Below are positions 14,361-61,076 of a stretch of 64,000 bases of DNA, piece by piece. Numbering within the stretch: position 1 is the stretch's first letter; each line of letters opens with the position of its first letter. Under the pieces are notes generated by a model, which searched no databases, was not told the DNA's origin, and saw only the letters and a list, made by a program, of their open reading frames with translations. The stretch is from assembly GCA_028532985.1 (NCBI GenBank), contig JANCIK010000013.1:1426001-1490000 (forward strand), read 5' to 3'. Position numbers and translations under genes: made by a program. Origin of the DNA: Stropharia rugosoannulata. Its lineage: Eukaryota > Basidiomycota > Agaricomycetes > Agaricales > Strophariaceae.

Positions 14361-14824
14361 CACATAGGACAGTGCCTGGGTACCGTAATCTATAGTGCTA
14401 CAGTGAACTATTATTATACCGTAGATCACGGAGTTATTTTGAGCCATTGCAGAACTAGTATACTACCATGTCACACGGGACTAATAGCTTTCTAGTATAT
14501 TACCGTGTTTTACGGGGCCATTGTCGACAAATGGTGATGGTCGTCAGGGCAAGATCAACCGGCGGTTCTCTATGTCGAGCAGCGGTGTCAAATGGCAGAT
14601 GGGCTGTGCTAGACCGGCGATTTCGATCGTTGACCGGCGCTATTCAAATTCAATATACTACTATTTTTCAGGGGACCAGTGTGAGGCTAGTATATTACCG
14701 TGGTTCATGGCTGATTTTGAACAAATGATTGTATGAAAACCGGCGGTGCATGATGAGAATCGCCGGTCTGGAATAATAAATGGTATGGGACCATAAATTA
14801 ATATACTACTATACATCACGGGAC
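14361..14824 (+). repeat. KDZ1 left terminal inverted repeat
   Basis: The sequence is the reverse complement of 28,176-28,639 with only scattered differences (e.g. GTCGTCAGG versus GTCATCAGG). It contains several ACCGGCGG/ACCGGCGA sites and repeated TAGTATA-type words that may be transposase sites. The close match implies recent activity. Confidence 0.9.
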
Positions 14825-14938
14825 TATTGTAAATCATTCTAAATTTGTCTATCGAGACCGCCGGTATGCACAAGGCAAGATGTGGAAGACATGAATTTTC
14901 CTGTGGCCCGTTCGTTGACACCTTTCTTCTCAACCACC

Positions 14939-16190
14939 ATGCAACCCACTTCTGACAATAGTCCTATTGATCTGACAGCCTCTGTATCCTCATTCATACA
15001 GACATCTGTCCGTTGCCGCATTAATCAGACTAAAATTAATTCCCCCCCATCGTCATGGGCTGCACAATTAATATGGGAATGTAATGATATTGTTGATACA
15101 CTAGTTATGGCATATCAAAACCAATGTGAGCCTGGACTTACCTGTGTTTTAAAGGACATTACTGATATATGCTAGATTCAACTATATGGAATGTACATGA
15201 CTACATTCAGAGCTTGACAAATAAACAGACTGGCAAGAATGAGGCTGTTGAGAAAAAAATGTTGAAGAAGTTTCCGCCTATATTTATGGAGGAGAGATAC
15301 ATTAAGACACCGTGCATTGTAACAGATAGGGATGGGAATATTTTGGTATGGTATCTACCTAATGCCATGATGTCGTATATGCAGGTAGGTGATGACAATT
15401 GTTGCGCACAATGAGGTCTGACCGTCTGACCGCCGGCCAGTACGGTCTATGGGAGAATTTAGATCAACTGACCCCATTAATGAAGACCACAAGAAATAAT
15501 TCAGACTGGAGAGGTGGCCTGGCCAATTATCATCAGAAGGCAGCCTGGAGGAAGCCAGGAAATGTGAGTCTTGCCTTAGCATGGTTTGAAATGGGCTATG
15601 GGGTAGGTCTATCTATAATTGTAAATACAAGAGTTGATGAATGTGTCCAGATGTCGTTACCGCCAGTTGTCAGCAAAAATATCCGTAAGGCCGCCGGTGT
15701 TACATGGCTTCGACAACAACATATGTTCTTTGCCCTTGTGGGTGGTCTACTAAGTGTGGTTAATCCTAGCCAATATGCCGCCGGTCTCAGGATGCTGACA
15801 TGGCTAGGTGAACACCCGGACCAGGTTCGGCATGGACAAGAGCTGAAGAGTCTATTGGAACACGGGAATGTGCCTTTTGGCGTGCTCACAGTGATCAACA
15901 ACAGAGACTCACCACCGCATCGTGACACCGGCGGCAGTCACTCGATGTTCGACATTGTCATCAGTTTGGGGACTTATAAGAAGGGGACAATGTCACTGCC
16001 TGGATTGGGCTTGGATCTTCATTATCGGCCCGGAACAATAGTTGCCCTATCGAGCAGGGTAGTTGTTCACAGTGCATACTGTAAAGGGGATCGGACTTGT
16101 CTTGTCTTTCACTCAAAGTCTACAATGGCAGACTATACAAATACTCATAGCACTTGGCCTAATGTGAATATGTTTAAAAGCATAAAATGA
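14939..16190 (+). CDS. TET/JBP-family 2-oxoglutarate/Fe(II) dioxygenase
   Basis: Predicted to oxidise 5-methylcytosine (or a related base) in DNA. Exons 14,939-15,125, 15,176-15,384 and 15,441-16,190 give about 381 residues; a further in-frame 54-bp intron (about 15,602-15,655) is possible because the second TET gene in the window breaks there too. An upstream ATG at 14,891 is an alternative start. The catalytic double-stranded beta helix has the iron-binding H-x-D in PPHRDTGG (about residues 292-294), the conserved LPGLGLDLHY strand, the distal iron-binding His in VVVHSAY (about 342) and the 2-oxoglutarate-binding Arg in GDRTCLVFHSK (about 351). All key residues are present, so it should be active. 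The second intron ends inside a CCGCCGG word. The gene lies just inside the left inverted repeat and converges on the partner gene. Confidence 0.88.
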
Positions 16191-16366
16191 TTAAATTGTA
16201 TTTGTACATAACAAAAATTGGGCAAACAGGGAAATACAAAAAACTAATTAACAAGAAGACGAGATGATGATACAACATGAAGAAGGGGACCGGCGGTGCA
16301 ATGGATCGAAAATGGGATGTTGCCTGCCTAGACGTCTGAGTCTGGTTCCCCATCTGCATCTGCATC

Positions 16367-18406
16367 CTAATCATCATCATCAGAAGTAGAGGAGTCTGAG
16401 TTGGGGCTCCAGGTAGAAGGAAGTGATGTGCATACCGAGCTATTGTCCGAGTCATCGTCATCGGTGTGGACATCTAAATGCCGCCGGCCACACCGCCGGT
16501 TGTTAGTACAGCTCGAATCTGTCATAAATACTAAGACTTACACATCGGTGGTGAATCTTCATCCCCACTCTCATTTTGCAGGAGATGAAGTGTATCATCT
16601 CCTGGTGCGGGAACCTCCATGGGGGCCTCATCATCCTCATCAATCTGTTCGAGTGCTTTATGACCGGCGGCGACAATTGTTGAAATCGAGGGCTCATCTT
16701 CCCCATCACTGATTTCCATGGGCGTCCCCGCCTCTTCATTGTCATCGGCCGTCAAATCGATGGGTTGATGCGGGGTATTGCCGTCAGGCATCCCATCTCC
16801 AAGTTGTGGCCTTTGCCCAATGAGACCGGCGGCCTGCAAATCAAGCTCCCTCTGGATCGGGAGTGTTGTGTCGACCAATTGTGGAGTGGGTGTCCTCCGC
16901 ATTGGGGGTCGTCTCCCCTCCAGGCTAGCCCGGTAAGCCTCCATTTCTATGGCAGAGGCCCGTCCAGGTTTGGTGACATTGCATTTGGGGAGGGGTCTCG
17001 CAGGCAAGACCACCTTGTCCGCCGGTACGTCCATCGGGGGTTCATCTTCATCATCGGTCTCCTCACCATCTGTCGTGCACGCAGATTCATGTTCATCTGC
17101 TTCGTTGTCCCCTTCATCCTCTTCGGTTCCTTCACCTTCATCATCCACGTCCTCTGCGACTGGGACCTCCATTGGCAGCTCGTCTTCATCCAAGTCTGGC
17201 TGGATATTTGATGGACCGGCGATGTCACCACCGGCGGTCGTTGGCTCATTCATGATTGTCGCAATGGTGATTTCTCGCCCCTTCCCTTTGCCAATGTGGG
17301 TATCCGCGACAGGCCTTTGCTGCACTGGGTCATTGATTATTAATCTGCCATTGGCGAATGGCTTCCCGGCGATGTATGCAGCCAGCTCTTCGACAGAGGC
17401 CACGCCTGAACGAAGTTGGAATGTGCGTGGGGCTGTCGTAGGACCGGCGGGTGAATTCGAGAATTCATCCGACATCGTGGAGCTTCCCTGAGATGATGAC
17501 CCAACCGAGGGACTAGGACTGCTGTCTTCTGGCAGTGGGCTGATGAATCGCGGCAAGAGACAGTTGCGTCCTGCGATTCCGGGGAGAGGTTCCTGGGGGG
17601 GATAGGTGTAGGTGTTCTTGCCCGGCGGTCGAAGGTTCTCCCACATGCTCTCCCTGGGCTCTTGAGGCCCACCTCGCTGTCCCCGTTCGAACTCGCCCTT
17701 CAACATCTTGAAATAAAATTCAAGCCATTCTAACTTTTCATCCTTCTTCAAGCAGGATTCACAAACTTGATCGAGTGTTGGGTTGGACCCCGCCGGCCTT
17801 GCTGCGAGTCCTGGAATCTCGACCCATGGCACTGGACTGCCAGGGAGATCTGGCATTTGGTGCATGTTGTCGTGGAAATCTATCATGAAAGTTAGAAGTA
17901 TCTCGAAGTGGTGGCGGATGGAATCGGCGGTGACTTGGTAGTCCTCGATATCATCCACCGGTGCGAGCCACCAAATAGGTGTTGTCTCCGTCATTGACAT
18001 TAGCAGGACATCTTCTTTTCTCATGAACTCCAGGTTGTAGGCCGGCGGAATCAGAATGCCATTTGGCCGGCAGGCGATGCCGTAACCGTTGATGGCCAAC
18101 TGATCTAGTAGATACGGCTGCCTCATTCGGTATCCTTTCATTACACATGTTGAAATGTGAATCAATGTGAATTCCTGAATAGAACTGTTAACTGTGAAGC
18201 AATAATCAATAGATAAAACTCACTATTTCCTTCATAAGCAGGCGGGCATAGGGGTTATCATGGCGAAGCTCGCCACCAGTGATCGAGTATCTGAGGCCAC
18301 AGCGGATGCGAAACATGCAGAGGTAAAGAAGCAGGTTGCACTGCACATGATCGATGCGGGCGTCTTCATCAAGGATCGGCATGGGGTTGGTGTTTGAAGA
18401 AGACAT
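16367..18406 (-). CDS. TET-linked acidic protein with CxxC pair and P-M-E-V-P repeats
   Basis: Not a named family that I recognise, but a relative sits in the same convergent place beside the second TET gene (57,690-59,761), so the pair is conserved. Exon 1 (18,406-18,224) encodes MSSSNTNPMPILDEDARIDH; exon 2 starts at 18,174; a 68-bp last intron with a TACTAAC branch site leads to a final exon ending at 16,367. The N-terminal ~190 residues look globular and hold a Cys pair (VCESCLKKDEKLEWL) before a helical segment. The C-terminal half is acidic and repeats an (E/D)xPMEVP-like peptide about five times (DELPMEVP, DEPPMDVP, GTPMEISDGED, EAPMEVP, DSPPM). It may tether the dioxygenase or other partners; this is inference. 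The last intron contains two CCGGCGG words. Confidence 0.65.
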
Positions 18407-18505
18407 TGTGATGAGAAGGAGTTTGAGTAGCCGTGGAGGTAAAAATGAAAGACAAGATCAACAGTGCAGAGATGGTTGATTGATAAGGTCACATGTATTC
18501 ATTCC

Positions 18506-21500
18506 TCAGGCCACATGATACCAGTGGCTTATATAATGTACATGTGCCTTACTAAATCTAGCATCTGCTACCCTACCTAATTCATTCCATAAGTTGATCT
18601 GTGCCTGTGCATAAGCCTGGAAACCTAGTGGGTGAGCGTTGAATTGGCCGGGCGCGTCATTTGATGGGTTTTGAATGGCGGTTACTGCATCTGCCCAGAC
18701 ATTCCGCCGGTCTTTCCACATATTTGCCATATGCACATAGAACCGGACTGTCCAGTCCATTTCATGCTGACATAGAACAACCTCTTCCTCCCAGCGCATT
18801 TTCTGTGCTCTTGCTCATAGCCAATGAATTCGATAGACTACAATTGTATTTAGGCACAGCTTGATGAATATCAATAAAACTTACAATCATTGATTCTTTC
18901 GCGATTGAGATTTCCTGCGACCGGCGGATTATCATCCGGCGGATCCATATTATGTTCTATTCTCCATATCCAAGCCATTCGAGAACTGCTACCCCCCCTT
19001 GCATTCGGTTCAGTTATTGATGCACTAGTATTTGTATCAGCTTTTGACATGATGGGGAATTGTTGTTCAATGGCAGCCCTATCAGTGTCATCCTTTGCAA
19101 GGCGTAGCATTGACAATCTGTTTTCATTATATTTCCGCCGGTGTGTACTGGTTGCCTGTGCCAACACGACCACACGATCCTGAGCTCTGGTGTGATGTGC
19201 ACCATCTGTCCTCCTGACATCAAATGCATATAGCCAAGATTTCTGAATGATTTCTCCACGAATAGATTCCAATAAATCATCAGCATGAGCTTTTCTGATC
19301 TTTAGCTCTGTTTTCTGTAACCGGCAGAGCATAGATTTATCCTGGGCAGATGCACCGGCGGATGTCAAAATCTCTTCGGTGATTTCAGAAGGGAATGCCA
19401 TTAGCTGCCTTTCTGGGTCAGCATTACTGACTTCTTCATTGGCCACCTCTGCTTCTTCATCCGTTTGTGCACCATCCAGGATGGGAACATCATGTTCATC
19501 ATTGAAAGAATTCAAAATATCAATGCCCATGATGTCAACTGCATTGCGAGAAAATTTGTCCAGCTGCTTGCGGTGTGTGCCGGCGGCGTACAAGATCCTG
19601 ACGCTGAGCCACTGTTGGGTCTCCAGGCATACGGCGGACATGGGACCGCAATTCATTTCTAAATAATGAATAAATTGGCTGGTAATAATGATTGACACTA
19701 CGCACTGCATTTGCTCAGCTTGAATACCCTGTGAGAGCCATACAGCTCGACCGCCGGTCTCTCCGTTTCGAATTTCATTCTCTGAAAGCTGCACCTCAAT
19801 TTCTCGCATCGTTGCAGCCTTCTGAACAGCCGGTCGATAAATGTCCATTGCTTCTGGGTCCTCATCTCGGCGGCGTTCAGCAGCCTCGATCTGTTCCAAC
19901 CATTCTGGCAGTTTATCCGCCGGCATACTTGCGGTAATATCATTATAGTACACAATAGCATCAATTTCTTGATTCACTGCTCGAATATATTTCTTGATGA
20001 TTGTAGATGGCATATTGACCGTCTTCTTCCAATTAGAATCGCCCATGTGATCATCGAGTACTTCAGCTCTATGGCCGGCGGTTGCAGTCCGAACACTGCG
20101 AGATGTCTTGTTTAGCAGGCTCCACAGGGTTTCCAGGATTTCTCCGTCTACCATGCCAACACCAGGGATATAGGTAGATGCCCATCTATATAGACATTCT
20201 GTCTTGTGGCCATGTACATGCCAGAGACCCACTGCGCGTATGCATCGAAGTCTTTGTGGCCAAGTGAGACCCTTCATTAGTCGAAATCGCCTAGTCATAT
20301 TCTTGTAGAACTGACACATAATGTCATAAATGAACATGACAGTCTCGATGCCGCCGGTGTTGGTATGCTTGAGTGCTTCAGAAATACTGTAGTCCATGCA
20401 CATTTGACGTTCACCCAATTCGAAGTCAACAAGGCTGCCTGGACAGAAGCAGCCGTGTCTTGCACATGCCTGTACACCAATCCCTCTGACCCGGCGGCCA
20501 GAAACAACCTTTTCACTGTCAAGCTGGGCACGATGAGAATGGCAAGTCGGCGGCTCCTTGAATTTCCTGGAATATTTTTTGGCATCCTTCAAATGCTCCT
20601 GGTATGGACCGGCGGCTGTCATGAATGCCTGGCCGGCTGTCAGATCAATATCATCATGGGCATTCTTTTGATTTAAATGGTCAGCCTTGAAATTCCCATC
20701 AGCACAGTACTTGCGAATAAAAAGAAACTTCTTGTCATTCTCTTTCCAGTCTTCAGGGAGGTTAATTTCTGGTTGAGGACAAGCAGGGCAAAATAGAGCC
20801 AGTATATCGCCGTACATCGATGGTGTCGTTTTAATCCCTCCGCGGTGCCACCGGCGGCGTCTTCACTTGCCCCATCTTCACTGTCTGATTCAGACTGTTC
20901 TGCAACTGGTGGAGGCATAATATCCTCATTTGGTATTTCATTGTCAGCCAGGATCCGGACATCGGGGATAGCTGGTGGGTCAGGTTCTGATTGCCATAGC
21001 CCATGTGCTCTGCCATGCATGGTCCACATCTTCATGTTCCGAAATTGTCTACTGAGCCGGCGGAGCTCACGATATCGATCCAATACTGCCTGTGGGAAGG
21101 CAGGGCAGGTCAACCGGCGGAGCTTTGTGTAATACTGATATGCAGATGTCTTGCACTCCAGGTTAGACAGCCTGAAGTCCCGAAGAACAGCAAATGTGAA
21201 TACAGTCTTGATCACATCAAAGGAGGTTGGGAATAGTGCCAGCTGCATGTATTGGCTATCCTCCGGCGGCTGATTGTTGCAGTGACATTTGACAGCCGGC
21301 AGGTGATGAATGCCATTCACCTCGACAATTGTGACAAATGGATTACCATGGGTATCATTTTGGGCTGGCCTCGGTAAGACTTGAGGGTAAGTAACATCAA
21401 TATCAAAGACAATTGTGTCTTCATCAATGTATTCATCAGCGACTTCCTCAGCTTCGTTGCAGACCGGCATTGTAAGCCCGGCGGAGATCATTTTCATGTT

Positions 21501-22204
21501 CATCGCCATATTCTCCCTCTTGCATTTCCTGTACGTTGTTGTAGTCGACCATTGTATTAGGACATCTATTTCCTTGATGGCCAAGATGAAGCTTTACACC
21601 AACTTGCCATAGTGCCGCCGGTGTGAAAGCACTACCATCCCAACGAAGAATACGATGAAATGGCATGAAATCATGAATCTGCCAGCAACATGTCGTGCAT
21701 AAGAGTCGTCCTCCAAAGCATGCCTTACACTTCCATTTGGCAGCAGGTGCATTGCAAGCATTGCATGTATCGATCCCTCTGGCAGGTGCATGAGATGCCA
21801 TCACAATCTTCAAGTGGGTATCCCTTCTGACCAGCCATTCTCTAAGAAAATCGTTTTGCGACTGCACAATTTAATATATGCAGTGTGCAATTCATGTGGG
21901 TGATATAACATACCTTGCCTCTGTATACTGGTAAATCCAAGTTTTGTAGGTTTTCGATAACCTGATCCTCAGTTATATCTCCAGCATAGTCTAGACGGTC
22001 AGGTACTTCCTGTGGTTCAAAGCCTGGTGGAACATCTGGAATAGCAGGAATAGCAGGAATAGTCAGTGCTACATTCTCTGCAATGGGTTCCCCACCACGT
22101 TTGCGCTTCTTTGTAATGACCTTTCCTCTATGGTCCCGCTCTTCTATCTGGATGCCACCAGCTTGATTTGGAACATTGTGCTGGGTTATACGGACACGGC
22201 GCAT
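18506..22204 (-). CDS. KDZ transposase with CxC2 cysteine cluster
   Basis: This is the element's own transposase (DDE-type, RNase H fold, nuclear). From MRRVRITQHN (22,204), exon 1 ends at 21,914 and exon 2 starts at 21,861. The CxC2-type cluster is CNACNAPAAKWKCKAC..LLCTTCC, followed by HRILRW, KLHLGHQGNRCPN and VEVNGIHHLPAVKCHC. The transposase core begins MYGDILALFCPACPQPEINLP and has CMDYSISEALKH, IYDIMCQFYKN and LWHVHGHKTECLYRW..VDGEILETLW, hallmarks of KDZ. A last exon gives the DRW-like helical tail (MRWEEEVVLCQHEMDWTVRF) ending at 18,506. The reading frame changes near 21,480 and 20,850. Both places carry CCGGCGG words and could be short introns or real frameshifts, so I cannot say whether this copy is functional. 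It shares a 158-bp divergent promoter region with the AT-hook gene. Confidence 0.85.
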
Positions 22205-22362
22205 TGGGAGTAGACAGTTGCGTGTGCATTCAGTGTTCGACCTTATATTAAGAAACCAATGGCACATGTGTTCTGCCTCATGTCGTTATCAATAAATGTA
22301 TCTATTTTAATCTACTTATAAGCAGGAATGCATCGGTCTATTTTTTCATCCCTTTCCCCATA
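22205..22362. promoter_or_regulatory. Divergent promoter region of KDZ1
   Basis: The 158 bp between the transposase start (minus) and the AT-hook gene start (plus) must hold both promoters. It is AT-rich, and notably lacks the ACCGGCGG word found elsewhere in the element. Confidence 0.5.
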
Positions 22363-24712
22363 ATGCCTACACCAGAAGAAACCCCGGCCTCTACACAGAT
22401 ATGGACAGCGAAGGAGTTGGAGATTTTGAGGGATCATGTCGAGGGATATCGTGCACAGGTCAAAGAGCGGAAGGGCACTTTCCTCGCTGAAAAGGTCATC
22501 AAAATGATCAAAGCATTGTGGGGATCACGATACAAAAAAAGTAATCCCAATTTCGATGAAAAGATGCAAGAGGAATGGAAGAAGAAAAAAAGGGTATGCC
22601 CCAAGCAATGTATGCAATGTAACGCCTAATGCTGTAACAGTCAATATGCAATTGGTTCAAGAATAATGCTAAGATGTCGAGGCGCATGAAAATTAAAGGT
22701 TTTAACATGGATGTTACCTTTGACTCTGTTGTCATTGCACGTAAAGGCAAGGAGATTGAAGAGGAAGCAAAGCGCCGTGCACGAAAGGCACTGGGTGGGA
22801 GTGATCAGGAATCTGATGGTGACGATGACAGGGTCGCGGATGATGAGGCCGGCTGTGGGGCCGGCGGTTACAGTAGCCGTTCCTGGATCAAATATTATGC
22901 AGGGGCAAAGAAGTATATTAAGGAGATGCTGACAGATGAGGAACGAGATGCAATCAAAATGGAGGTGATGGAATGGAAAGCGAAGGGTGTGCCACCAGAG
23001 GTTCAAGCCAAGTCAGTTTTTGATTACACCGCCGGTCCATTACTAAGAGACTGTATAGACAAGCTGTGAAGCACTGTTCAGACATTTGTCGTGAAGTGGA
23101 TAGGAAAATGTTTGAGAGCATGGGTGTGAGATCACTCTGGATCACAACTTTTGATAAACCAGACGGACATGCTACATTCACAATGTGAGCATCTCTGCAG
23201 TTGACATGAATGTTCCTGACCGCCGGTCAGCTACGATACCCAGGTAGTGCAGCCTAATGCGCCAATGAATTTTCCCAGCTTTCAAGAATTTGATCCGAAT
23301 AGCTACACAGCAATTAGGACCAGTTACATAAAATACATTGAGCACATCACTGCTCTCAAGCGTGGCGAGGCCGCCGGTGCTGAATCTGTAGAACACCAGG
23401 CCAGCTCTCATCCATCAGGGATGCCCTGGATGCCTGCCTATAATCCAAAGGGACGCAAAGAAAGTCTCAGGGTCATGCAGGGGATGATCTGCAAGTACTA
23501 CGGATTGCACTTCGGTATGTGTATATGTTTTCAACGTAATTTGACAATTAATGTATGTACCTGATTGAGTAGCACTAGCAACGAAATCATCCAGGGGCCC
23601 ACCGTACACATCAATCAAAAACAAGCACAATTGGCAGGACTTCGTCGACCCTCTCTACATGCCTCATGGCATCTCGTTTCGGGACCCTTCATCATATAAC
23701 AGGTCAACAGCATTTGATATTCTCAATCTCATCCGCCGGTTGCGGCAAATGAAATTCCTTCAAATTTCATGCCATTCCTAATGGCGCTGTTGAACCGTGC
23801 CTCAGATGTACCCTGAAGAGTTATTCACATCATTCGCTATACCAGACCCAGACCTCGGGATGAATAGAGAGGATGATATCAGTTTGGCTGACCTTCAACA
23901 AATGGCAGAAGTCTACACTGATGACTCTATCACCACAAAGTCGCAGGATAGTGATGCACCGCCGGTCATGATTCTCGATCGGCGCCATCAGATGATGACA
24001 ATATGTCAGGAAGTCCAGCACCCCTGACGAGACTCAAGCACAAGGAGTCATCCATATCTGAAGACAATGTGGACCGCCGCCTAGACAAATAACTAATAGG
24101 ATTAGATCCAGGTCAAGATTCATTGCAAAAAAGTTTATTCTCAAGAATCGTAAGGGTAAGAAGAAAGAATCAGTTTCGGAACATGATTCAGATGTGGAGG
24201 ACCAGTCAGACAAGGTGGAAGAATTAAGAGACCGGCAGTTAACATCTGCATCAGGATCAGTTGACGACCGCTGGTCTGACAGCAAAGATGAAGGACCCAG
24301 CAGAAGAAATACATTCCGTGCCCAGAAAGGCAGACCCCCTGGACTGCGGGATATATCGAATACAAGGGATAGAAATCAGTCAAGGGTAAGAATTGTCGAA
24401 CCTGATGCAAAGGAAGGAGGAACAAAGCAGACAAAACACAAGACTGTTTCCAGAGGACGCTCACACAGCAAGAATGGAGATGGAGAAAGTGAACGCCGGT
24501 CTTCCAGACGAATTGCTTCAAGACCGGCGGTCTCGGATATCGAGAATGTGGTTGAAGTCAAGAGGCACCGAGGACGACCAAAGTTAAGGGAACATGTTGA
24601 CAATGCTCACGGCATGCGCCATTCAGCTCGCCTAGCCTCGCGCCGACCAGCCTCGACTGACCACAACAGTGGCCACAAAAAATCTTCAACAAATAGACGA
24701 TCGGGGAAATAA
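22363..24712 (+). CDS. KDZ-associated protein with C-terminal AT-hooks
   Basis: The N-terminus (WTAKELEILRDHVEGYR, then after a 48-bp intron NWFKNNAK) matches a large Agaricomycete family often found near such transposons, of unknown biochemical role. Further exons encode SRSWIKYYAGAKKYIKEML, REVDRKMFESMGVRSLWITT, YIKYIEHITALKRG and NWQDFVDPLYMPHGISF. The tail has basic tracts and AT-hook-like KRHRGRPKLRE and QKGRPPGLR, suggesting minor-groove DNA binding. The frame is not continuous: two stops near 23,780 and a shift near 24,080, at a GACCGCCGCC variant of the word, must be introns or lesions. Several introns carry the word (acceptor CCGCCGGTCAG near 23,230). Confidence 0.6.
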
Positions 24713-25064
24713 TGAAACCGCCGGTCTCACCGCCGGTCTCACATGTCACAATCAGTCGAAAATGTACATAAAGTTACCTAGGGATAGATATATTGTGATA
24801 CATTTAAATTAACTTCTAACCTGACATGACGCCGCCGGCCACAATTTGCAACTTCGCATATTAAGGACTTCACACATTTTGCATCAATGTATATTTTTAC
24901 CTGACTTCACTCAAACTGATGTTTACAAGCAAATGACAAAAAATTAATTTTACTTTGACTTCTGAAGTCAAAGTTTCAAGATATACTGATACATTAAATT
25001 GCCCTTGATCTAACTTCAAGGGGCGGTATATACAGACAAAAAAAATCGAGATGCAAGGAGGATG
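24713..25064. other. Convergent intergenic region in KDZ1
   Basis: No gene. The two flanking genes end here. The word is clustered directly after the first stop (ACCGCCGGTCTC twice, 12 bp apart, at about 24,718-24,741). The rest is AT-rich and contains AACTTCAAG and TGACTTCTGAAGTCA-like palindromic bits. Confidence 0.5.
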
Positions 25065-27306
25065 TCACCGGCGGCCTTTGGTGCGAGTGCGCTTCGCCGG
25101 TGGCTCCTCGTTCTCCTCACCCTCATTCCCTCGCTTGGCACCGGCGGTCGTCCCTGCTGTCTTGCTCTTTCCTCCACCCTTCCCCCTCTGACTCCTCGTC
25201 TTCTTCACAGGCGCCTCAACCTGCGACACCGAGTCCAGCTCATCCTCCTCGCTGGCGCCCTCGTCATTGTCTCCCCCCTCAGCCTTCCCATCCCCCTGCT
25301 CGGTGGGCGACTCTGCAGCCACGACCATAGGCGTGTCGCTGTCAGTGCCCACGTTCTCCTCGTCTTCTTCTTCGTGTTCTGGGGACTCAGGAGGCGGTGT
25401 GCGCACCTCGATGAGATCTTGGGCGGAGGGGGCAGGTGGGCGAGAAGGGACAGGCGAAGGGGAATGGGCAGGGGATGGAGACAGGGCAGGTGGACGGTGC
25501 GGGACCGGTGAAGGCGATAAAGGAGGGGGAGTGGGGGCCGGCGGTCCAGTCGACACCGGCGGTGGCGTCTTCCGAGGGACTTGGATGTCGAACGGCGTCA
25601 TTGACCTTGACTTCGGCCGTGACGTCTGTGCAATGACCTGCTCCAGCAGGCTCCTCAGAGCCCGCTGTCCCTCCATCAACTCCGTCAGGGCTCGCCCATG
25701 CCCCTCAACCACCACCTTCAACTCCTGGACCTTGTCTGTCAGGTCCTGCGCATCAGCCCGTATCGTCGTCAGTTCCTCGACCGCCTCCGTTGTCTTCTCG
25801 AGCGTCTTCGAGAGCTCCTGGTTCTGGCGCTGGAGCGCCCGAACGTCTGTTGTCGCGTCGTCGAATCCGCGCTCGACGTTGCAGGTGATCACTCGCGTTT
25901 GCTCCAACGTCATCATAATGACGTCCCCGACGTTCTCGGCGTCCGCGAAGACTTTCTTGCGGTCCTCGTCGACGTAGCGACTCAGGTGGTGGTCCCAGGG
26001 GGCGACTTTGTCGGCCAGTGTCATGGCGCCCGGCGTCTTGAGGCAGGGCTTCTTGTACATGTATTGACATGTACTACAAGCCCTGACGGGGTTCTCCCGC
26101 ATTTCCTTCTCATGCTCCGGGGACTCGACGTAGCAGGGTGTGCCGCGATTGATACAAGACCAACAAGGCGTCTTGGTCTTGTAGCAATCGGCGGGCATCC
26201 GCCCCTTAGACGTGGTAGATCGCGCGCGTGCCTTCCCCTTGCCCTTGGCCGCCGGTTTCCCATCGGACTCGCTGTCATCGTCCACTTGCCTCGATTTCCT
26301 CGACGCTGCTGTCCTCGCCTCTGGCTCGCTCTGGGTCGCCTTGCCCTTGCCCTTCTTCGTGGGACGCTGTACCTCTTCCTCGTCCTCGTCGTCCTCGTAT
26401 TCGCTTTCATCGTCCGTGTCCACGACGAATTCATGCGATTTTGTTGCCGCCGGTTGTCTAGACGGGCCAGCCACCGGCGGCCTGGTGGCTGGCCCCTTCG
26501 CATTCTTGGCCTTGGGCTTGACAGTGGCCTCCTTCTCGCTGGCCTTGACACCGGCGGTCGCCTTCGCCTTCTTCTGCTTCGGCACCTTCTGCAAAGGCAG
26601 CGCCACGACGACCTCAACAACGTCTTTGAACGCTGCTGGGTGTGCGCCTGTGGGGGACGGTGTCTTCTCCCGTGTCGCGATTTTCGATGACTTCGCCTTG
26701 GCGGCGACAGGGGCAGGTGGTGCGGGAGGGGGAGAGGCAGGCGCAGGGGGGGGTGGGGAGGCCTTCTTCGCCTCTGTTGCTTTGGCCGCCGGTGCAGCCT
26801 TGACCGGCGGTGCAGGCTTCACCCCGACAGTCGCCGGTCGATTGACTAAGAATGTGTCAGAAATGAACAAAAGGTTATAATATTTATTACTCACCAATGA
26901 TAGGCATGCTGCCTATATCCACTTCCACCTTCCCCTGCTCCTGCCTCCGTAGGACGTATAGCCCCGTCTCCACCATCTCCTTGAATGCGTCCCAGCGCAC
27001 GTTGTCTGCGTCTCGGCCATCGGAATTCGCGTCCTTGGACAACAGCTTGCGCACATAGTTGTAGAGCGTGAGCCCTACAGTGCACCCAGCAGCCGACTGC
27101 TTGCGGACTTGAAGTTCAACCTATTGTTAATGAATGGTCAGTAAACTAAACATAGAACATGTAACAAAAAAACTCACCAAGGACTTCCAAAGTCTGGACC
27201 TCTCCTTCAAAAACAGTTGGCTCCCTCCCTCCCAAATTCGCACACAGTCGTGATGGAATGCGACGATTGCGTCTCGGATTTCAAGGTTGCTGTGAGACGA
27301 AGCCAT
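25065..27306 (-). CDS. Cys-cluster/coiled-coil protein of KDZ1 (candidate DNA reader)
   Basis: Three exons (27,306-27,181; about 27,121-26,894; about 26,847-25,065) give a protein of about 710 residues. The N-terminal ~118 residues are globular (ASSHSNLEIRDAIVAFHHD ... NYVRKLLSKDANSDGRDADN). A long Pro/Ala/Lys-rich linker, an acidic patch (DESEYEDDEDEEEV) and basic tracts follow. The Cys cluster is TPCWSCINRGTPC then RACSTCQYMYKKPCLK; a coiled coil (LQRQNQELSKTLEKTTEAVE) and a Pro-rich tail with a basic end (KKTRSQRGKGGG) close the chain. Such layouts in mushroom genomes suggest zinc-dependent nucleic-acid binding; no function is proven. Gypsy A encodes a protein with a similar cluster and layout (34,100-36,112). 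The linker and introns contain many ACCGGCGG words. Confidence 0.7.
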
Positions 27307-27912
27307 GAAGAAAGGTAAAGGGAATTATTGAGAAGAAGAGGACGCGGGGTGTGGGAGAGAAGAGAAATGTTCCGTTGATGGCTGTGCGCTATTATAAAGT
27401 TCAACCATCTACAAATAATAGTCAACATTCCCACGCAAAGCAATCAACAGACTTCAGCTTTTCAAAACCAAAGGCAACATCTGGACATCGCCAGTCTTAG
27501 TAAAACCGCCGGTGCATATCAATAATGTGCATTTTTATAAAAAATTTGTCACTGGTGTGGGCTACCATAGCATAATAATTAGGTATATACCTTTAGCCAA
27601 AACACATCGCCGGTCTCAGTTAGACCGGCGGTGCATAATATTGTTGTACGATAATCTGGGCAGGTATGGCCTCAATTGTAATGGTCTATAATATTGTTAT
27701 TATGCTGGCTAATAGTCATATACTACACTTGCAACGGTCCCATTATGCATAGTAGTATATTCATTTCATGAGTATGAACATTGATCACCTGAGACCGGCG
27801 ATGTATACAACACCTCTGGTTTCCAATTTCCAACAATCATATGTGCAACATGAGCCCATATACCATTGTAATATACCAGACTCACAGATGTATAGGAGTA
27901 TCTTAATTTATG

Positions 27913-28356
27913 GTCCCAGACCATTCATTATCCCAGACCGGCGATTCTCAGCGTCCACCGCCGGTTTTCATACAATCATTAGTTCAAAATCAGCCATGAA
28001 CCACGGTAATATAATAGCCTCACACTGGTCCCGTGATGTATAGTAGTATATTAATTTATGGTCCCATACCATTTATTATTCCAGACCGGCGATTCTCATC
28101 ATGCACCGCCGGTTTTCATACAATCATTTGTTCAAAATCAGCCATGAACCACGGTAATATAATAGCCTCACACTGGTCCCGTGATGTATAGTAGTATATT
28201 AATTTATGGTCCCATACCATTTATTATTCCAGACCGGCGATTCTCATCATGCACCGCCGGTTTTCATACAATCATTTGTTCAAAATCAGCCATGAACCAC
28301 GGTAATATACTAGCCTCACACTGGTCCCCTGAAAAATAGTAGTATATTGAATTTGA
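27913..28356. repeat. Three 148-bp tandem repeats at the KDZ1 right end
   Basis: Units start at 27,913, 28,061 and 28,209 (GTCCCANACCATT...), so the period is 148 bp; the third merges into the right inverted repeat. Each unit holds one ACCGGCGA and one ACCGCCGG site plus TAGTATATTAA. The left end of the element has a single unit, so the repeats arose by local amplification. Confidence 0.85.
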
Positions 28357-28639
28357 ATAGCGCCGGTCAACAATCGAAATCGCCGGTCTAGCACAGCCCA
28401 TCTGCCATTTGACACCGCTGCTCGACATAGAGAACCGCCGGTTGATCTTGCCCTGATGACCATCACCATTTGTCGACAATGGCCCCGTAAAACACGGTAA
28501 TATACTAGAAAGCTATTAGTCCCGTGTGACACGGTAGTATACTAGTTCTGCAATGGCTCAAAATAACTCCGTGATCTACGGTATAATAATAGTTCACTGT
28601 AGCACTATAGATTACTGTACCCAGGCACTGTCCTATGTG
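28176..28639 (-). repeat. KDZ1 right terminal inverted repeat
   Basis: The sequence is the reverse complement of 14,361-14,824, ending GGCACTGTCCTATGTG. Gypsy copy B begins at once on its right side. Confidence 0.9.
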
Positions 28640-54419: not shown

Positions 54420-56338
54420 CCATATGACATAACATCATTCCTGCTGATTCTTTTTATAGATATCTACTATACCTGCCGGACCATTCCGGCAACTAGATTA
54501 CTACCGTAGGCTATAGGCCCATTCCGCCGGAATGGGAGGTCACAGCCACAACTTGGGCCTCGGGCAGTCACCAATACGGACCTTGTAAGTTGTCGGACCG
54601 TCGGTCGGTGCCTGCAGCCGGCTGGCGATTGTTCTCGTGGAATATGCTGTCCTCATCAGCAAATCTGGGACTTACTATATAGTACCTACTAGCATTATAT
54701 AATACCATAGCACCATAGTAAGGGTTCTTATCTATTTAGCACGGCATAGCATAGGCTCATATCTACATAGTAACTCGGCTACATTATGTAGTATTATATA
54801 ACACTCTGTAGAATTACATAGTACAGTACCAGTACTTAAATTCGAGCGGCATTTAGGTAGATCAAGGGCTATAATATTGTTTATTACTTATTCACACTTT
54901 ACGTCTATTACAAACAACATAATATTACACTTATATATATATATGTAAGTACATTAAGAGCATGGGCTAGACAGGGGCTGTTTCGTGACGCAGTGGGGTC
55001 GTATATGGCATGGCATGGGTCTCGTGGTAGTCGTTTTTCAATGTGGCAGGGTCATGGGGTGGTTGGGACATACGAGGCAGTGGGACCTGCATGGAGAGAT
55101 TGGGGGATTCAGTTACTCACCTATGCTTCACCCCTTTTCGTGCCTGTTCCCTGCTCCCTGCAGCTTCATTGTCATCTTGTCATTGGCGTCATTGGTGTCG
55201 TCAACGTTGTTAGGGTGGTTGCACTATGGGGGAGAGGGAAGGGGAATTCGGCATGGTGGTGGTAGTGGATGAAGAGGGAACGGCTGCGACATGGCAAGAA
55301 ATATCCATAACACAGCCTTGACACAGCCTTCGGAAATAGCCGAGAAAAAGCGGTATATGTATTCTTTAGTTCAATCAAAATAAATTGTGGTATGGCCTAG
55401 GTGGTTTATTACGGCCTTCTACTATATAAGTCCCTTGAGGCTTGGGGTTCAATTCTTGCTGGTCGCATTTTTTAATAAGTTAGCATACATGAAATTTGGC
55501 TTACTGCTGGTTGAAACTTGTACGATATGTCGATATCATTATATCTACACACAGTATACTTTATTTAACTTAGTATATAGCGGTTCGAAAGCCTGGAAAG
55601 ATATAAAGATGAGCCAAAGACATAACAAGATCTACGAACTTTGAAAACTGCTGAAGCTATAACTATAGTCGTTATTAGATTAGTATTTATGGCATGACTT
55701 GCAGAGCCTATTATAGAGTACTACAACATGCTATATAACGATAATAATTATACTATATAGTGCTACGTGACTATGGGCCATTATAAGCCTAGTCTAATTA
55801 CTATAACATGCTATGAGATTGTACGGTATTACTATGCCGTTCTATGAGATCATGTGGTATTATTATGACATGCTATGAGAAAATGGTTGGATTTGCTGAT
55901 GCTGTCTGGCATATGTATAGTGTATTCACGTGTTTACTGTGATATCCAGGAAGATATTCAAATTCCTATCCATTGGGCAGGCCCCGTTACTGACTATCAA
56001 TGCTTGCCAGTACCTTGACCGAGCAGAGTATTATTATCTCTGTTTTACCAATGCAAATAACTATTATGTGGATATACTACTACTACTCACCACTGACACA
56101 CCCAACGCGCAGACTCAGCAATCTCCTTGATATCCACTATCTAGTTTCTGTCAAAATCAGTGCTTAAACTGCGAGTCATTATTACCAATATTCGGACATG
56201 CCCGATACAGTATCGGAGGCCGGGTGGTCTAAGCTGTGCCGGCCCGGTGGCATGTGACCGATTATCATGATTGAAATTTTCACTACTTGGCCCTAAGTTA
56301 ACTTCTCCTTATCATACTTCCGTAGTATACCAAACACT
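54420..56338. other. AT-rich non-coding region of TET2
   Basis: No convincing gene. An AT-rich repeat with terminus TCATCAGCAAATCTGG starts at 54,653 (also at 2,687). The rest is full of TATAG and CTATG words. Plus-strand frames at 54,985-55,272 have no recognisable similarity. Confidence 0.4.
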
Positions 56339-57606
56339 ATGTCACTTGGACTTAACATGACAGAAAATGTCTCGGCATATATGAGGGCGTGTCTGCACAC
56401 GATCATCACTGGCGAGGCAATCAATACACATTGGCCTTACAATGCTTGTCTTCAATGTGATTGCAACGACATGGTTGACAAGGTGGCAATGGCATTTCTC
56501 AATCAAAGTAGGATGTAATAATTTTTAAAGAGGATAAATCTTACAATTTGAACTAGAACATTTGTCTTGGAACGTTCAGGATTATGTCTCAAGTTTGACC
56601 CCCAAACAGAATGGCCAAAATGAAGAAGTAGAAACCAATATTGCCTCTAAATTTGGAAAACTGAATAATTGCAAGAACATAATCACCAAGGCATGTGTTA
56701 TCACGGATTTATCAGGCAATATATTGCTATGGTATCTCCCTAATAGTTTAACAAAATCCAGAGCTGTTGAGTGTATGCCTCCAGTCTCATAAAATAGTAC
56801 TGACAAATGTTAAAGAGTATGATATGGGATATAGTGTCAACTCTTGGGTCATCCATCAAAATAGCACAGAAATCAGAAAATTGGAGGAGTGGACCAAGAT
56901 ACTACAACATATCGGATCTGACCTCGGGTCCCGTGCTGGTAACCGATCCTATCGATGAAAATGACTGCGCTAGCATTCTGCCAGGAACTTTGACGTTTGC
57001 CCCTGCCTGGTATCAGGTTGGCCATGAGGTTATTATCTTTTGTCATGAGCACCATTGCTAGACTTATAAATTATTAAATAGAAGACAAACAAACTTAACA
57101 TGTCATCCAGTTTGCAAAATCCAAAAAATCACCTTTGGCTTGAGAGCCAAACTGAAGTCTCTGCATTAATTGGAGGCCTACTATCCATCATTCATCCTCA
57201 ACAGTATAGTCAAGGAATCAGTTGCTTAAAGTATCTTGAAGCTCATCCCGAACTGCTTTTTAATCCATCCAGATTGGATGACGTCCTGCAATTTTGGAGT
57301 GTGCCTTTCACAGCAATTACTATTATCAGCAATCGGACTACCCTGATCCACCGAGATATCGGCGCCGAGCCGAGCACCTTTGATGTAATGCTCAATGTTG
57401 GTGATATTCCACCAAACTTTTACCTTGAATTACCTGGGCTTGGCGTCAAACTGGGTTACAAGAATGGAACTGTTGTTGGACTGGCCTCAAAGATTCTCCT
57501 TCATGGGGTACATAACGATGCTAAACAGGTTTGCATTATCTATCATTCCAAACAAACTGTCACCAAGGTTCTGCATGGGCAAGACCTGCCATGGATGCAA
57601 ATTTGA
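56339..57606 (+). CDS. TET/JBP-family dioxygenase of the second element
   Basis: The exons parallel the KDZ1 gene: NVSAYMRACLHTIITG, then WNVQDYVSSLTPKQNGQNEE, then NWRSGPRYYNISDL..FAPAWYQVGHE, then a last exon to 57,606. The core has the iron-binding H-x-D in LIHRDIGAEPSTFDVM, LPGLGVKLGY and the distal His in KILLHGVH. At the position of the KDZ1 2-oxoglutarate-binding Arg (GDRTC) it has Gln (AKQVC), so activity is doubtful unless the alignment shifts. Introns fall in the same places as in KDZ1. The two proteins are clearly diverged, so this is a distinct lineage. Confidence 0.75.
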
Positions 57607-57689
57607 AGTCTGTAATTATGTACCCATTTTCTTGCCAATATTTATTTCTTTATCTACACACTTTTGAAGAAAAAATATGTCGGGAAATT

Positions 57690-59761
57690 CTAATCAATTG
57701 TAACAACACCCTGTTGAAAGCCAAAGGAAGGTTCTTCATCTTCACTGTCCTCATTAGAAGAATCAGAGTCATCGGTGTCCGAGTCAGAATGCTCGCTTGG
57801 CATGGAAGAAGACGAAGACAGAGGTCGCAGGAGTCCGACAGTCTCAGGGTCGGTCTCTCCGTCGGCATCATCGTCAGGTGAAGTAGTTCTGGGGGGGACA
57901 TCCTCGCCATATTGCTCACCATCCCCTTTCACATCAAGGGTGTTCGAGCGCCCTGGTGATCCCACGGACCCCGACTCGGATACTGCCCGATCTGACTCTT
58001 CCGTATCTGACTGTTCAACAACTGGAGGAAAGTCTTCCTCTTCTGAATCGAAAGATTTTTCTCGGCGACTGTGTTCTTCAGCCTCCGGCTCATCTGCTAC
58101 ATCTGAGTATCCAAATGTTGGTGGAATATCTTCCTCCACACCGTCCTCCTCGCCGGATGTGTTTAATTCACCAAATTTGGGTGGGACCTCTTCCACGTCA
58201 TGTTCACCGGAGACCTCCGACTCACTGAAGGTCGGTGGAACATCTTCATCTATGTGAAGCTGATCCCCTTGATCTTTGACGTAAATATCTTCATCTTCTT
58301 CAGATACGTCATCTTCACGGATTGTGGGAGGAACTTCTTCATCGGGGGCCGGTCGGCCTTCATTCTCGGTGCCCGGGTACAGAATGTCCTCTTCGGTGGA
58401 GCTGTCTGTTGTTGGAGAGGAAGGGCTTTTTGCAACGGTTGCCGGATCGACGTTGACATTATTGCCAGGCGTGTGTGGCAACTTCGAAGTCGGGGACTGA
58501 AACTGCACCGATTTGACAAAACCCGGTTCCCGATTCGTCTGTGTGTCTGAATGATCCAATTTAATTCATTTGTTCAAGAAAGCCAGACTGACAACCCCAA
58601 TACCTTTATCGCCGTCGGCAGGGAAATCCTTTTTGAAAACTTCAGGCGGGTTTGGACCGTACTTGTACGGGATTACTCCGGTTTTTGCGAAGTGTTTGGA
58701 GATTGTGTCATACTGATTTATGATGTAGTTCGAACGTTGCATTGCCAATCCAACAGTACGACTTGTAGCTGCAAATTGCATCCGCAGGTGTTGCATCTCT
58801 TTGATTGCAGCGTTGGCTAATTCCTTCCATTGACCGCAACTTCCACATCGGTCTCCTGGCGCCTGGTAATCGGGGCCCGACTTCTGTTGCGGCGCAGGTG
58901 CTTTCTTGTACTCGGATGTGTTTCGTGACAAAGATGTGGGAATGGCCGAAATTCCCCCTTTTGGTTGTTCTCTTGCACCGGATCGACCCTCTGGTGCTTG
59001 TTGAGCTGATGCTGGTGGTGAATCGGTTTCCGACCCCAAACAATGTGACATTGAGCGAGGTGGCTTGAAAGGTTTCGGTGTCGGTATGGGTGGAATGACA
59101 ATTTTCATTTTGTCGAACGCCGCTTGCCACTTCGGCAACGCAAGACAATCTTCGGGAATAGGTCTCGGTCGGGCCTGCCACGGAGACCGAGTCGGGGGCG
59201 GAGTATTCGGATTGGTATCAAGATTTTCATTTTCGTTGTCTTCTGCCCAGCCCCTGAAGATGGTGCTTCCAAGCACTACCTTCTCATATTCTGCCATGTG
59301 TTCAATGATGTGGACATATGCTGGTATTGCTTGAATAATTTCCTGTCCTTTACAATTCCACCAATGATGGTTTTCTGATGTCAGCGCTAAAATTTTGTTG
59401 TCGTCTTCCTCGGTAAACTCCCTATCCACCAATCCAGGTATATTTGATGCGTCCGTTTCGTTGGATGGTTCGTACAATGCACGAACCATGAAATCGAAAA
59501 AATATGGGGTCTCAATGACAAACCCTTGCAAATGACAAAATCCAATATAGGAAAGCGCAGCCTCCTGCAGTAACTCTTTTTTAGTGTAAGTGCAGTAGAA
59601 GAAGTTATGGTTACTCACCACTTCTGCTGAGACGTTATACCAATAAGGAAGTCCATCCCATATATCTTTGAAAACGGCCCTGGATGCCATCTGCACCCGA
59701 GCCATCAGGAGATGTACCTTGATATTGGCACGTCGTTGGCGATCACGGAAGTTGGACGTGT
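57690..59761 (-). pseudogene. TET-linked acidic protein of the second element, 5' truncated
   Basis: The frame runs from the Gypsy D LTR edge (TSNFRDRQRRANIKVHLLM) through an N-terminal region like that of the KDZ1 partner, a Cys pair (RCGSCGQWKELANAAIKEM) and, after an intron at about 58,607-58,540, an acidic C-terminus. That tail repeats an E(D/E)(V/I)PPxF(S/G)ES-like peptide six times (EEVPPTI, EDVPPTF, EEVPPKF, EDIPPTF, EDFPPVV, EDVPPRT). The upstream exon and promoter are cut off by the LTR insertion at 59,762, so the gene cannot be expressed as normal. The stop is at 57,690, 84 bp from the TET stop. Confidence 0.65.
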
Positions 59762-60976
59762 TGACAGGGCTGCTTTTTGGCTACGGGTGTAAACAGTCAG
59801 AAGTTCCATTAGTGGGATAGCTGCGCGCGGGAGACACAGAGGGACTAGAGTGGAGCCTGCCTCGTAGTCTATAGCTATCAGCGTGCTGTATAACTATAAG
59901 CGCCTGCGCGCACTGTATCGCGAGAGGGAGCGGTCAGCGAACTGCACAGCTCAAAGTGCATAGTCTGGCCATCTGTGCGAGCGATTGAAGAGGCGCAGAA
60001 CGGTTAAGCACCAGTGAAGTGCGGTGTGAGTACAGCTGAGCAGGTACCAAGGGCAGTGTGAAGGGCTGTGCGCGCATCTCATGTGCGTGCATTGCAAAGG
60101 CAGAATTTGCCTAAGTCCACACATCATGTGACCGTGGCAGTGCGCATCAAAAGGGACGCACAAAAGCCCGAGGGAATGAACGACATGCGTGCAGCGAATG
60201 CTAAGAGATCAGGACACTCGAAGGGAAGCCCGGATGCGATGCACGGACCTTTGGCCGCACGTTGCTAGTATTTACTTTACCTTATTATTAGTACACATGT
60301 GTGCATCACATATAAACCTGTATCCTTGTCTATAGTAATCCAAGCAATTGTCTACCCACTAGATCTGTGTGCTGGGTTCTGTCCCAGGCCGTCAGCAGGC
60401 TGTGTTTAGCTTTTGTTAGGGTTTTAACTGTGAAGTATTTGTGAATCATAGGAGTTTTGGATAGCTTCTGGCCACCGGGTCATTTGGAGAGCTCAGTGAG
60501 GAGTCAGTACAACTGTGTACAGAAACTCGCACTGTAGTGTTTAGACTGTGAGACTGCACCGCTGGGTGAAAGACTTTGGAGAGTCTTGGATTGTTGGACT
60601 TTGGAGAGTCTGTGCATCGCACGAGGTCACCGGACCCGGAAGTGTGTGCAGCGAAGCTGTTTGCTAAAAACAACTTATTTCATTTATCATTTTGCCTAGC
60701 ACATGCCACTAGCAACCAGGCTCTATCCGAGATTTACTAGAATTAAACCCCTCCTTACAAACAAACTTGCAGGCACTACTTGCTGTTACAAAGACTAGAG
60801 GACACGAGGTGCGCACATCGCATGCCCAGAATGGGAACCAGAACAGAGCATAGATTATACTAGCTGTTTAGTTGAGGGCGTTCGCTTGATCTAAGGGATA
60901 GGATCTCGCTCCGCTGGGTGTGTGTGTGTGTGTTGTGTTTCACGATTTCGAGTCTAGCTACGCAGTAGACCTCTCA
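59762..60976 (+). repeat. 5' LTR of Gypsy D
   Basis: TGACAGGG...CTCTCA, 1,215 bp. The TATA-like CATATAAACC lies at about 60,308. The adjacent family word reads TGTGTGCA here. Confidence 0.92.
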
Positions 60977-60978
60977 TC

Positions 60979-60996
60979 TGGAGCCCACCGCGAGGG
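60979..60996 (+). other. Primer-binding site of Gypsy D
   Basis: TGGAGCCCACCGCGAGG, two bases after the LTR. Confidence 0.75.
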
Positions 60997-61076
60997 GAAG
61001 GTTCAGAAATCTCATTTAGTGTTTCGGGAACTACGGCTTGCGCCTATTACAATAAATTACAAAAATTTCAAATAAA

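Follow-up and report, generated by a model that had tools for sequence, protein, structure and literature searches.

In the 64,000-nucleotide stretch of Stropharia rugosoannulata DNA analysed here (contig JANCIK010000013.1, positions 1,426,001 to 1,490,000; hereafter the window), a KDZ DNA transposon, element A of family A, carries one short word, CCGGCGG or its complement CCGCCGG, along its whole length, and related KDZ families of the same genome carry other words. Family-specific words in excess of what codons and composition predict were found in families A, B and C and weakly in B2; the first three also have a zinc-cluster-like gene, and genome searches place one near the B2 copies. We propose that each KDZ family encodes a coiled-coil zinc-cluster protein that would bind a CGG word peculiar to the family and so coat its own element, probably against silencing. 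Judging from sequence, we give this reading a probability of about 0.55.

One word along a KDZ element

The exact word was counted 62 times in the 14.3 kb of element A (14361-28639), divided 32/30 between the strands, and 4 times in the remaining 49.7 kb of the window. For the 8-mer ACCGGCGG the counts are 46 and 0. An earlier note on this DNA had claimed more than 60 core sites on both strands, lacking in the regions on either side, and had named three close pairs; the observation was confirmed, the pairs standing at 24718/24730, 25538/25556 and 16481/16493. The word is the most frequent 7-mer and 8-mer of the element, and its density is even, with 1-7 words in each of 14 bins of ~1 kb.

The site is symmetric and can be written RCCG-S-CGGY, with G or C and never A or T at the centre of exact sites. 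Swapping the centre base reverses the strand of the word, and such flips are seen between copies, one or two per comparison. The variants CCGACGG/CCGTCGG, as rich in CpG as the word, do not occur in element A. Beyond RCCG-S-CGGY the flanking sequence is approximately random, except in three 148-bp tandem units (27887-28353) that lie beside and inside the right terminal repeat and hold one word each. Thus, the sites arose one by one, and duplication of a repeat unit is ruled out as their cause, these terminal units excepted. At the left end, no array of the 148-bp type is among the tandem repeats listed.

Base composition and short k-mer bias are ruled out as causes by Markov models. Models trained on the element gave means of 0.8 (order 1), 2.6 (order 2) and 8.9 words (order 3), with a maximum of 20 (40 runs each). 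The order-4 model, which comes close to holding the word itself, gave a mean of 32 and a maximum of 45. Models trained on host sequence predict 0.5-1.1 words per 14.3 kb. Amino-acid or codon use is ruled out as well. The words are read in all three frames within the transposase open frame, and a synonymous-codon shuffle of six open frames left 5.6 ± 2.1 words (maximum 13 in 1000 shuffles) where the actual number is 37. The CxC2 frame was omitted from this total since it overlaps the transposase frame. The earlier note was therefore right that the word is read in several frames and that protein selection does not explain it.

The features of element A are as follows.

14361-28639: KDZ DNA transposon, element A, with KDZ transposase, CxC2, TET/JBP and long terminal inverted repeats
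14559-28441, both strands: the 62 word copies, starting from 14559 (first) to 28435 (last) and spread over the whole element
14361-14830, + strand: left terminal inverted repeat, beginning CACATAGG, with words at 14559 and 14740 and three CCGGCG near-words
28170-28639, - strand: right terminal inverted repeat, ending CCTATGTG and overlapping the 148-bp tandem units
15396-16187, + strand: TET/JBP dioxygenase open frame (PF12851, E 4.2e-15), with 4 words
16534-18219, - strand: acidic protein without Pfam family, with 8 words
18874-20862, - strand: KDZ transposase open frame (PF18758, E 2.2e-44), with 12 words
20676-21593, - strand: CxC2 cysteine-cluster open frame (PF18803, E 1.8e-19), with 5 words
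22252-24709, + strand: open frames, probably one gene, with KGRPP/RGRPK stretches and without a family match
25068-26912, - strand: candidate word reader, an open frame of 615 aa whose Cys cluster (26043-26165) precedes a long predicted helix (~25623-26003), with 10 words

Both marks of KDZ membership, the transposase domain and the upstream CxC2 cluster, are present, and the CxC2 frame is probably the upstream part of the transposase gene. A TET/JBP gene, a trait of some KDZ families, is matched in A and inside B. The KGRPP/RGRPK stretches are AT-hook-like. The terminal inverted repeats are ~470 bp long and 97% complementary between the arms, and no target-site duplication of 7 or 8 bp was seen at the window copy, as judged by eye.

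In the genome as a whole (48 Mb, 20 contigs), ACCGGCGG occurs 1406 times and a reversed control word 1393 times. As the two counts match, the 8-mer is not a common one in this genome. Among 100 matches listed (contig C1, up to 2.86 Mb), three family-A copies hold 25, 13 and 5 by hand count. The remaining 57 amount to ~20 per Mb, compared with ~3200 per Mb in the window element. Two outcomes had been named beforehand as telling against the idea, equal density of the word elsewhere in the genome and loss of its enrichment after correction for codons and base composition; density elsewhere is far lower, and the enrichment stays.

In two other copies the words stop near the ends. In the copy at contig C1:2185540-2198878, delimited by terminal repeats, ACCGGCGG runs from 2185758 to 2198653 and its nearest occurrence outside is more than 13 kb away; in the copy at C1:2399915-2413052 it runs from 2400472 to 2412229. 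Spaced pairs of the form CCGGCGG-N155-185-CCGSCGG number 159 genome-wide versus 29 for the reversed control, and 79 of 100 such pairs listed lie no more than 17 kb from a family-A transposase match, a space that makes up ~2% of the genome. The transposase search of the genome gave at least 78 matches and the KDZ profile search 123. By terminal repeats and transposase matches, two family-A elements stand in opposite orientation, 4 kb apart, at contig C8:118933-150020.

Words of the other KDZ families

Besides element A, we read stretches of family B (contig C13:2427001-2446000), B2 (C2:1031001-1048000) and C (C9:456501-477000), along with 10 kb each from further copies of C and A, one of either family. 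The second A copy is ~99% identical to the first and the two C copies are 98% identical, so that neither pair is independent. The family B transposase is 68-70% identical to that of A, and the first 10 kb of the B stretch are free of CCGGCGG.

An enumeration of spaced k-mers, unseeded by any word and set against null models of 4 simulations per stretch, returned a different CGG word for each family: everted CCG-N1-CGG in A, inverted TCGG-N3-CCGA with a weaker N7 form in B, inverted N7 and N2 forms, both weak, in B2, and TCGGCC(A) in both C copies. Spacing spectra of CGG pairs (Poisson P against a trimmed mean, multiplied by 93 comparisons) agree with this. The everted n=1 pair stands out in A (62 sites, P 1e-59), the inverted n=3 (45 sites, P 8e-25) and n=7 (21 sites, P 1e-5) pairs in B, and the inverted n=7 (P 2e-4) and n=2 (P 7e-4) pairs in B2. 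In C no CGG pair is enriched, and TCGGCC occurs 50 times in 14.2 kb. Expectation-maximisation motif fitting worked for A and diffused over weak signal in the other three families.

These words are largely private to their families. The A word reaches 4.34 per kb in A, compared with 0.06-0.14 in B, B2 and C and 0.08 in the rest of the window. Its host value is inflated, because the background loci on contig C1 (L004-L033) each contain ACCGGCGG by construction. The B word stands at 3.34 per kb in its own family, 0.07-0.24 in the other three and 0.30 in the rest of the window, mostly in one KDZ piece, and a longer C word, TTCGGCCA, at 1.20 per kb in C and 0-0.12 in the other families. As N7 pairs (1.91 per kb in B, 1.41 in B2) and N2 pairs (0.89 and 0.94) occur at similar rates in both, B and B2 differ in the N3 word. 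The B words start with the left inverted repeat (2233 in the concatenated sequence; its partner, 18973-18988, is near the end of the stretch read). The C words fill ~14 kb, with 0 in the 5.5 kb to the left and in the 1 kb to the right. A retroelement-like insert, with a gag-like frame by eye, lies inside the B2 element.

This second KDZ piece of the window has these features.

56213-59780: second KDZ piece, carrying the B word TCGGNNNCCG and without CCGGCGG
57082-57603, + strand: TET/JBP open frame
57693-59780, - strand: relative of the acidic protein

The B word had been fixed before the window was searched, and this piece played no part in finding it. In the window outside element A, 13 of the 15 positions listed for the B word fall within 56213-59181; counted as CGGN3CCG, the share is 11 of 17 sites, some of the 15 positions being two readings of one palindrome. 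The piece is 68-75% identical to B and about equally distant from B2. In a loose alignment (58% overall) it has 1 of 29 word columns in common with B, a pattern expected under selection for the word rather than for its place. The stretch 59762-61978 (2.2 kb) is 94.6% identical to the retroelement-like insert within the B2 element, and ~597 bp of it also occurs immediately beyond the B element's left end.

A candidate reader and the probable upkeep of the words

A regular expression for two CX2CX6-7C half-clusters was applied to the stretches read and to 49.6 kb outside the elements. It matched once each in A, B and C (the C match is a 94-residue open frame) and not at all in the 49.6 kb outside. 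The A cluster has the form CX2CX6C-X18-CX2CX7C, and the linkers between the halves are 18 (A), 23 (B) and 14 (C) residues long. Each of the three cluster peptides has Zn_clus as its single Pfam match, at 23.8 bits in B (E 4.9e-5, above the cut-off of 21) and 15.9 bits in C (E 0.014, below it). Of the six halves taken singly, the second of B matches Zn_clus profile positions 2-17 (E 0.004), one matches an unrelated family and four have no match; the best stretch of A matches the later part of the profile, at E 5.5 only. The order of the half-clusters looks swapped relative to the Zn_clus profile. The Cys-cluster frame of family C opposes the direction of the transposase, unlike those of A and B.

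A single-sequence structure model of the A protein predicts one helix over residues 80-206 of the modelled piece, with a predicted local distance difference test score (pLDDT) of 93-97 over 111-200; the B model, with a pLDDT of 44, was not usable. Foldseek of the A model against the PDB returned no match below E 9.7, a protein database search with the A zinc protein gave 777 candidates, 0 of them at E 1e-3, and a PDB sequence search with the B protein gave nothing meaningful. No KDZ relatives were found in viral contigs.

The gene accompanies the transposase. For 29 family-A and 13 B/B2 transposase places, picked by hand from the search results with one per copy, a relative of the A protein lies within 10 kb at 21 of the 29 and within 35 kb at 23, and a zinc-protein relative lies within 10 kb at 9 of the 13 and within 35 kb at all 13. 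In the B2 element, the zinc-protein relative is 34 kb from the transposase match. Three of the six A places without a relative were read, and they are CpG-depleted (observed/expected ratio, o/e, 0.21-0.32). The relatives are open frames in most of the better-preserved copies. Three of 29 genome matches of the A protein, including one of 29 residues (E 4.5e-4), are far from the KDZ and TET places listed.

The zinc protein diverges faster than the transposase. Six A copies have a zinc protein 43-45% identical to that of the window element (contigs C11:1991275, C1:2211605, C7:2364254, C10:926993, C13:2083981 and C11:412924), and in five of them transposase identity is 95-97% in the first part of the query and 89-96% in the remainder. 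The zinc proteins of these six reflect either fast divergence or gene exchange between elements. Three other A copies show 70-71% identity for the zinc protein, compared with 95% and 83-85% for the transposase. The corresponding values are 83-85% versus 93-94% in family B and 34-48% versus 71-75% in B2-like copies.

The earlier note had suggested self-recognition by a Cys-cluster, AT-hook or CxC2 protein of the element, an interpretation that is partly supported. Because the CGG words are family-specific and a single zinc-cluster-like protein, of a class that typically reads CGG pairs, was found in each of A, B and C, the Cys-cluster protein is the favoured candidate, rather than the other two. 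Self-recognition gains support from the related families with other CGG-type words. We therefore treat the zinc-cluster-like protein as the putative reader of the word.

We suggest that the word has been seeded from end to end of the element, in exons too, and that the protein would thereby coat its own family and little else. Most family words would be two CGG triplets of set spacing and orientation, and the family A site two triplets pointing outwards around one S base, probably bound by a dimer. Family C would suit a single-triplet reader such as Pho7, as described in the part of PMC5559640 covered here. The coat would most likely keep the element open against silencing based on CpG methylation, and in A and B it could bring in the element's own TET/JBP enzyme or act beside it. 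Given the CpG loss in old copies and the presence of TET/JBP in A and B, keeping or making the element unmethylated is the simplest purpose of coating. Word and reader would form the core of the system, with TET as an optional partner, and the system presumably extends to other KDZ groups of this genome. It is an even bet, in our estimation, that the words form an address code, in which each family has its own CGG arrangement, running from end to end and through coding sequence, and a fast-diverging reader with halves swapped relative to Gal4, both change when families split, and the families are mutually blind.

The CpG loss was seen in 21 aligned family-A loci (L035-L055) of ~4.3 kb each; L056-L063, second pieces of the same copies, were left out. 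The window element and 11 further copies with healthy CpG content (o/e 0.64-0.78) hold 13-22 words per locus and six CpG-depleted copies (o/e 0.21-0.41) hold 1-3, while L046, L052, L053 and L055 (o/e 0.45-0.62) hold 9, 13, 14 and 5. This loss suggests that CpG methylation acts on family A.

Copies that are 84% identical keep 12-13 of 16 words, where neighbouring 7-mers predict 8.5 (P 0.01-0.06) and CpG-bearing neighbouring 7-mers predict 6.2 (P 0.0001-0.0014). L040 keeps 17 of 18 words, and retention in L039 exceeds the CpG-bearing control only (P 0.01). A region-wide comparison (12-13 of 16 kept versus 0.23-0.30 of CpG-matched 7-mers) looked stronger, so the locally matched test is the one to quote. 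In a comparison of lineages, the word stands in one copy where the other has a sequence several changes away (CCGCCGG versus GCACTGA). Upkeep of the words is thus likely, on mixed tests.

Competing explanations and known systems

Several results weigh against the proposed self-coating. The strongest pair of B2 is a direct repeat, CGGN3CGG (30 sites, corrected P 2e-6), which the proposal does not explain, and the C hexamer TCGGCC is less sharply specific than the other words (3.52 per kb in C, 0.35-1.19 elsewhere, 1.19 being the value in B). The half-cluster pattern was not found in the B2 stretch, where the retroelement-like insert lies in the corresponding region, or in the 10 kb read from the other C copy. 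Where found, it has long linkers (14-23 residues) and half-clusters that appear swapped in order; canonical Zn2Cys6 linkers have 5-12 residues. As the A cluster stays below the Pfam Zn_clus cut-off (7.6 bits, E 5.5), we call the protein zinc-cluster-like. Where read (4 of 6), the copies with a zinc protein 43-45% identical keep the same word. Upkeep tests are mixed: L044 (13 of 18) and L045 (10 of 18) exceed neither local control. Four-fold sites within words are not significantly more conserved, and purifying selection on the words at such sites is not supported. Finally, no TET/JBP match is listed near three C copies (L066, L071, L072), so TET recruitment cannot be general, which leaves word and reader as the core.

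The protein might instead read the word as a chromatin organiser or transcription activator, at about one site per nucleosome and with no anti-methylation role. Zinc-cluster proteins are mostly activators, and in family A the spacing fits: the median gap is 193 bp (pairs 12-27 bp apart merged), and, once pairs under 30 bp are merged, 64% of gaps measure 130-260 bp, close to the nucleosome repeat, versus 28% under random placement (0 of 5000 random sets reach 64%). The second A copy has this spacing too, being nearly identical to the window copy. It was not found in B, B2 or C, however, so that nucleosome-like spacing is ruled out as a general rule and holds for family A only, and activation from promoters needs no exonic sites. 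We consider this explanation unlikely.

Subterminal repeats serve as transposase-type binding sites in Ac/Ds and En/Spm, and the word could likewise be bound by the transposase or an accessory transposition protein. Both the terminal repeats and the 148-bp units do contain words, and the transposase has a CxC2 cluster upstream of it. Yet the words are not concentrated at the ends, and the A and B transposases are homologous while their words differ in layout, which makes such a role quite improbable.

Somewhat less probable still is a host reader, either a zinc-cluster regulator, of which fungi have many, or a silencing system still acting on the elements. Against it, families within the same genome have different words, the words are rare elsewhere in that genome, and CpG-rich copies keep them. 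Mutation or composition bias, by which CpG-rich words survive as bound or unmethylated DNA with no selection for them, could draw on a CpG o/e of 0.79 in the element (0.71 without words) and 0.86 in the host and on a retention excess that is modest or absent in some copies; it is very improbable, as the 62 sites are all one 7-mer while the equally CpG-rich CCGACGG/CCGTCGG is at 0, other families have other words, protection alone cannot create sites, and the word stands in one lineage opposite GCACTGA in another.

If self-coating by family-specific readers is true, these KDZ elements would be a second, independent case of self-labelling transposons, in another kingdom and another superfamily and with a label even in exons. 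It would offer a possible answer to how a transposon-borne TET/JBP enzyme could favour its own family. Reader-word co-evolution is directly testable here, as one genome holds several families and the reading of CGG is well understood.

Reading two CGG triplets (inverted, direct or everted) as coiled-coil dimers is typical of zinc-cluster proteins (PMC5559640, in the part covered). The candidate readers look like these Zn2Cys6 (Gal4-type) proteins in their pair of CX2CX6C-type halves, in the helix predicted behind the cluster of the A protein and in putative CGG sites of varying spacing and orientation; they differ in the longer linker, the apparently swapped halves and sites that lie along a transposon rather than in promoters.

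Among KDZ elements, those of Kyakuja type have CA...TG ends, a 7-bp target-site duplication and no terminal inverted repeats, according to the parts of Kojima (2025, PMC12730594) covered here. Element A shares with them the KDZ transposase, the TET/JBP gene and the ends (CACATAGG...CCTATGTG agrees with CA...TG). It differs from the two Laccaria families reported there without terminal inverted repeats in having such repeats of ~470 bp and a family-specific word. Section 4.2 of that paper speculates that the Kyakuja TET acts without target preference; its main text has no 'zinc' word, and the parts covered have no dispersed word. In Pleurotus, CxC2 precedes intact KDZ copies, and the part of PMC7641404 covered does not mention words. 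Among the literature matches listed there was no report of dispersed words in KDZ, and the family specificity of the word appears to be what is new here.

The closest parallel, already drawn in the earlier note, is the VANC/VANDAL system of Arabidopsis, whose elements are Mutator-like. In the parts of PMC5735166 and PMC10398659 covered here, a VANDAL family is enriched for its own short motif and its relatives for a different one, and a changeable element-encoded reader, shown for VANC, would have its counterpart in the zinc-cluster-like protein. The parallel would hold in function and fails in layout. VANC motifs form non-coding tandem arrays of one orientation (PMC5735166, part covered), whereas the words of element A are mostly single sites on both strands and also in exons, with a tandem array only at 27887-28353. 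Because it lacks the tandem, non-coding layout, we do not class element A as a VANC/VANDAL member. The KDZ system differs further in its CGG-based words, its transposon superfamily, its fungal host and its zinc-cluster candidate reader.

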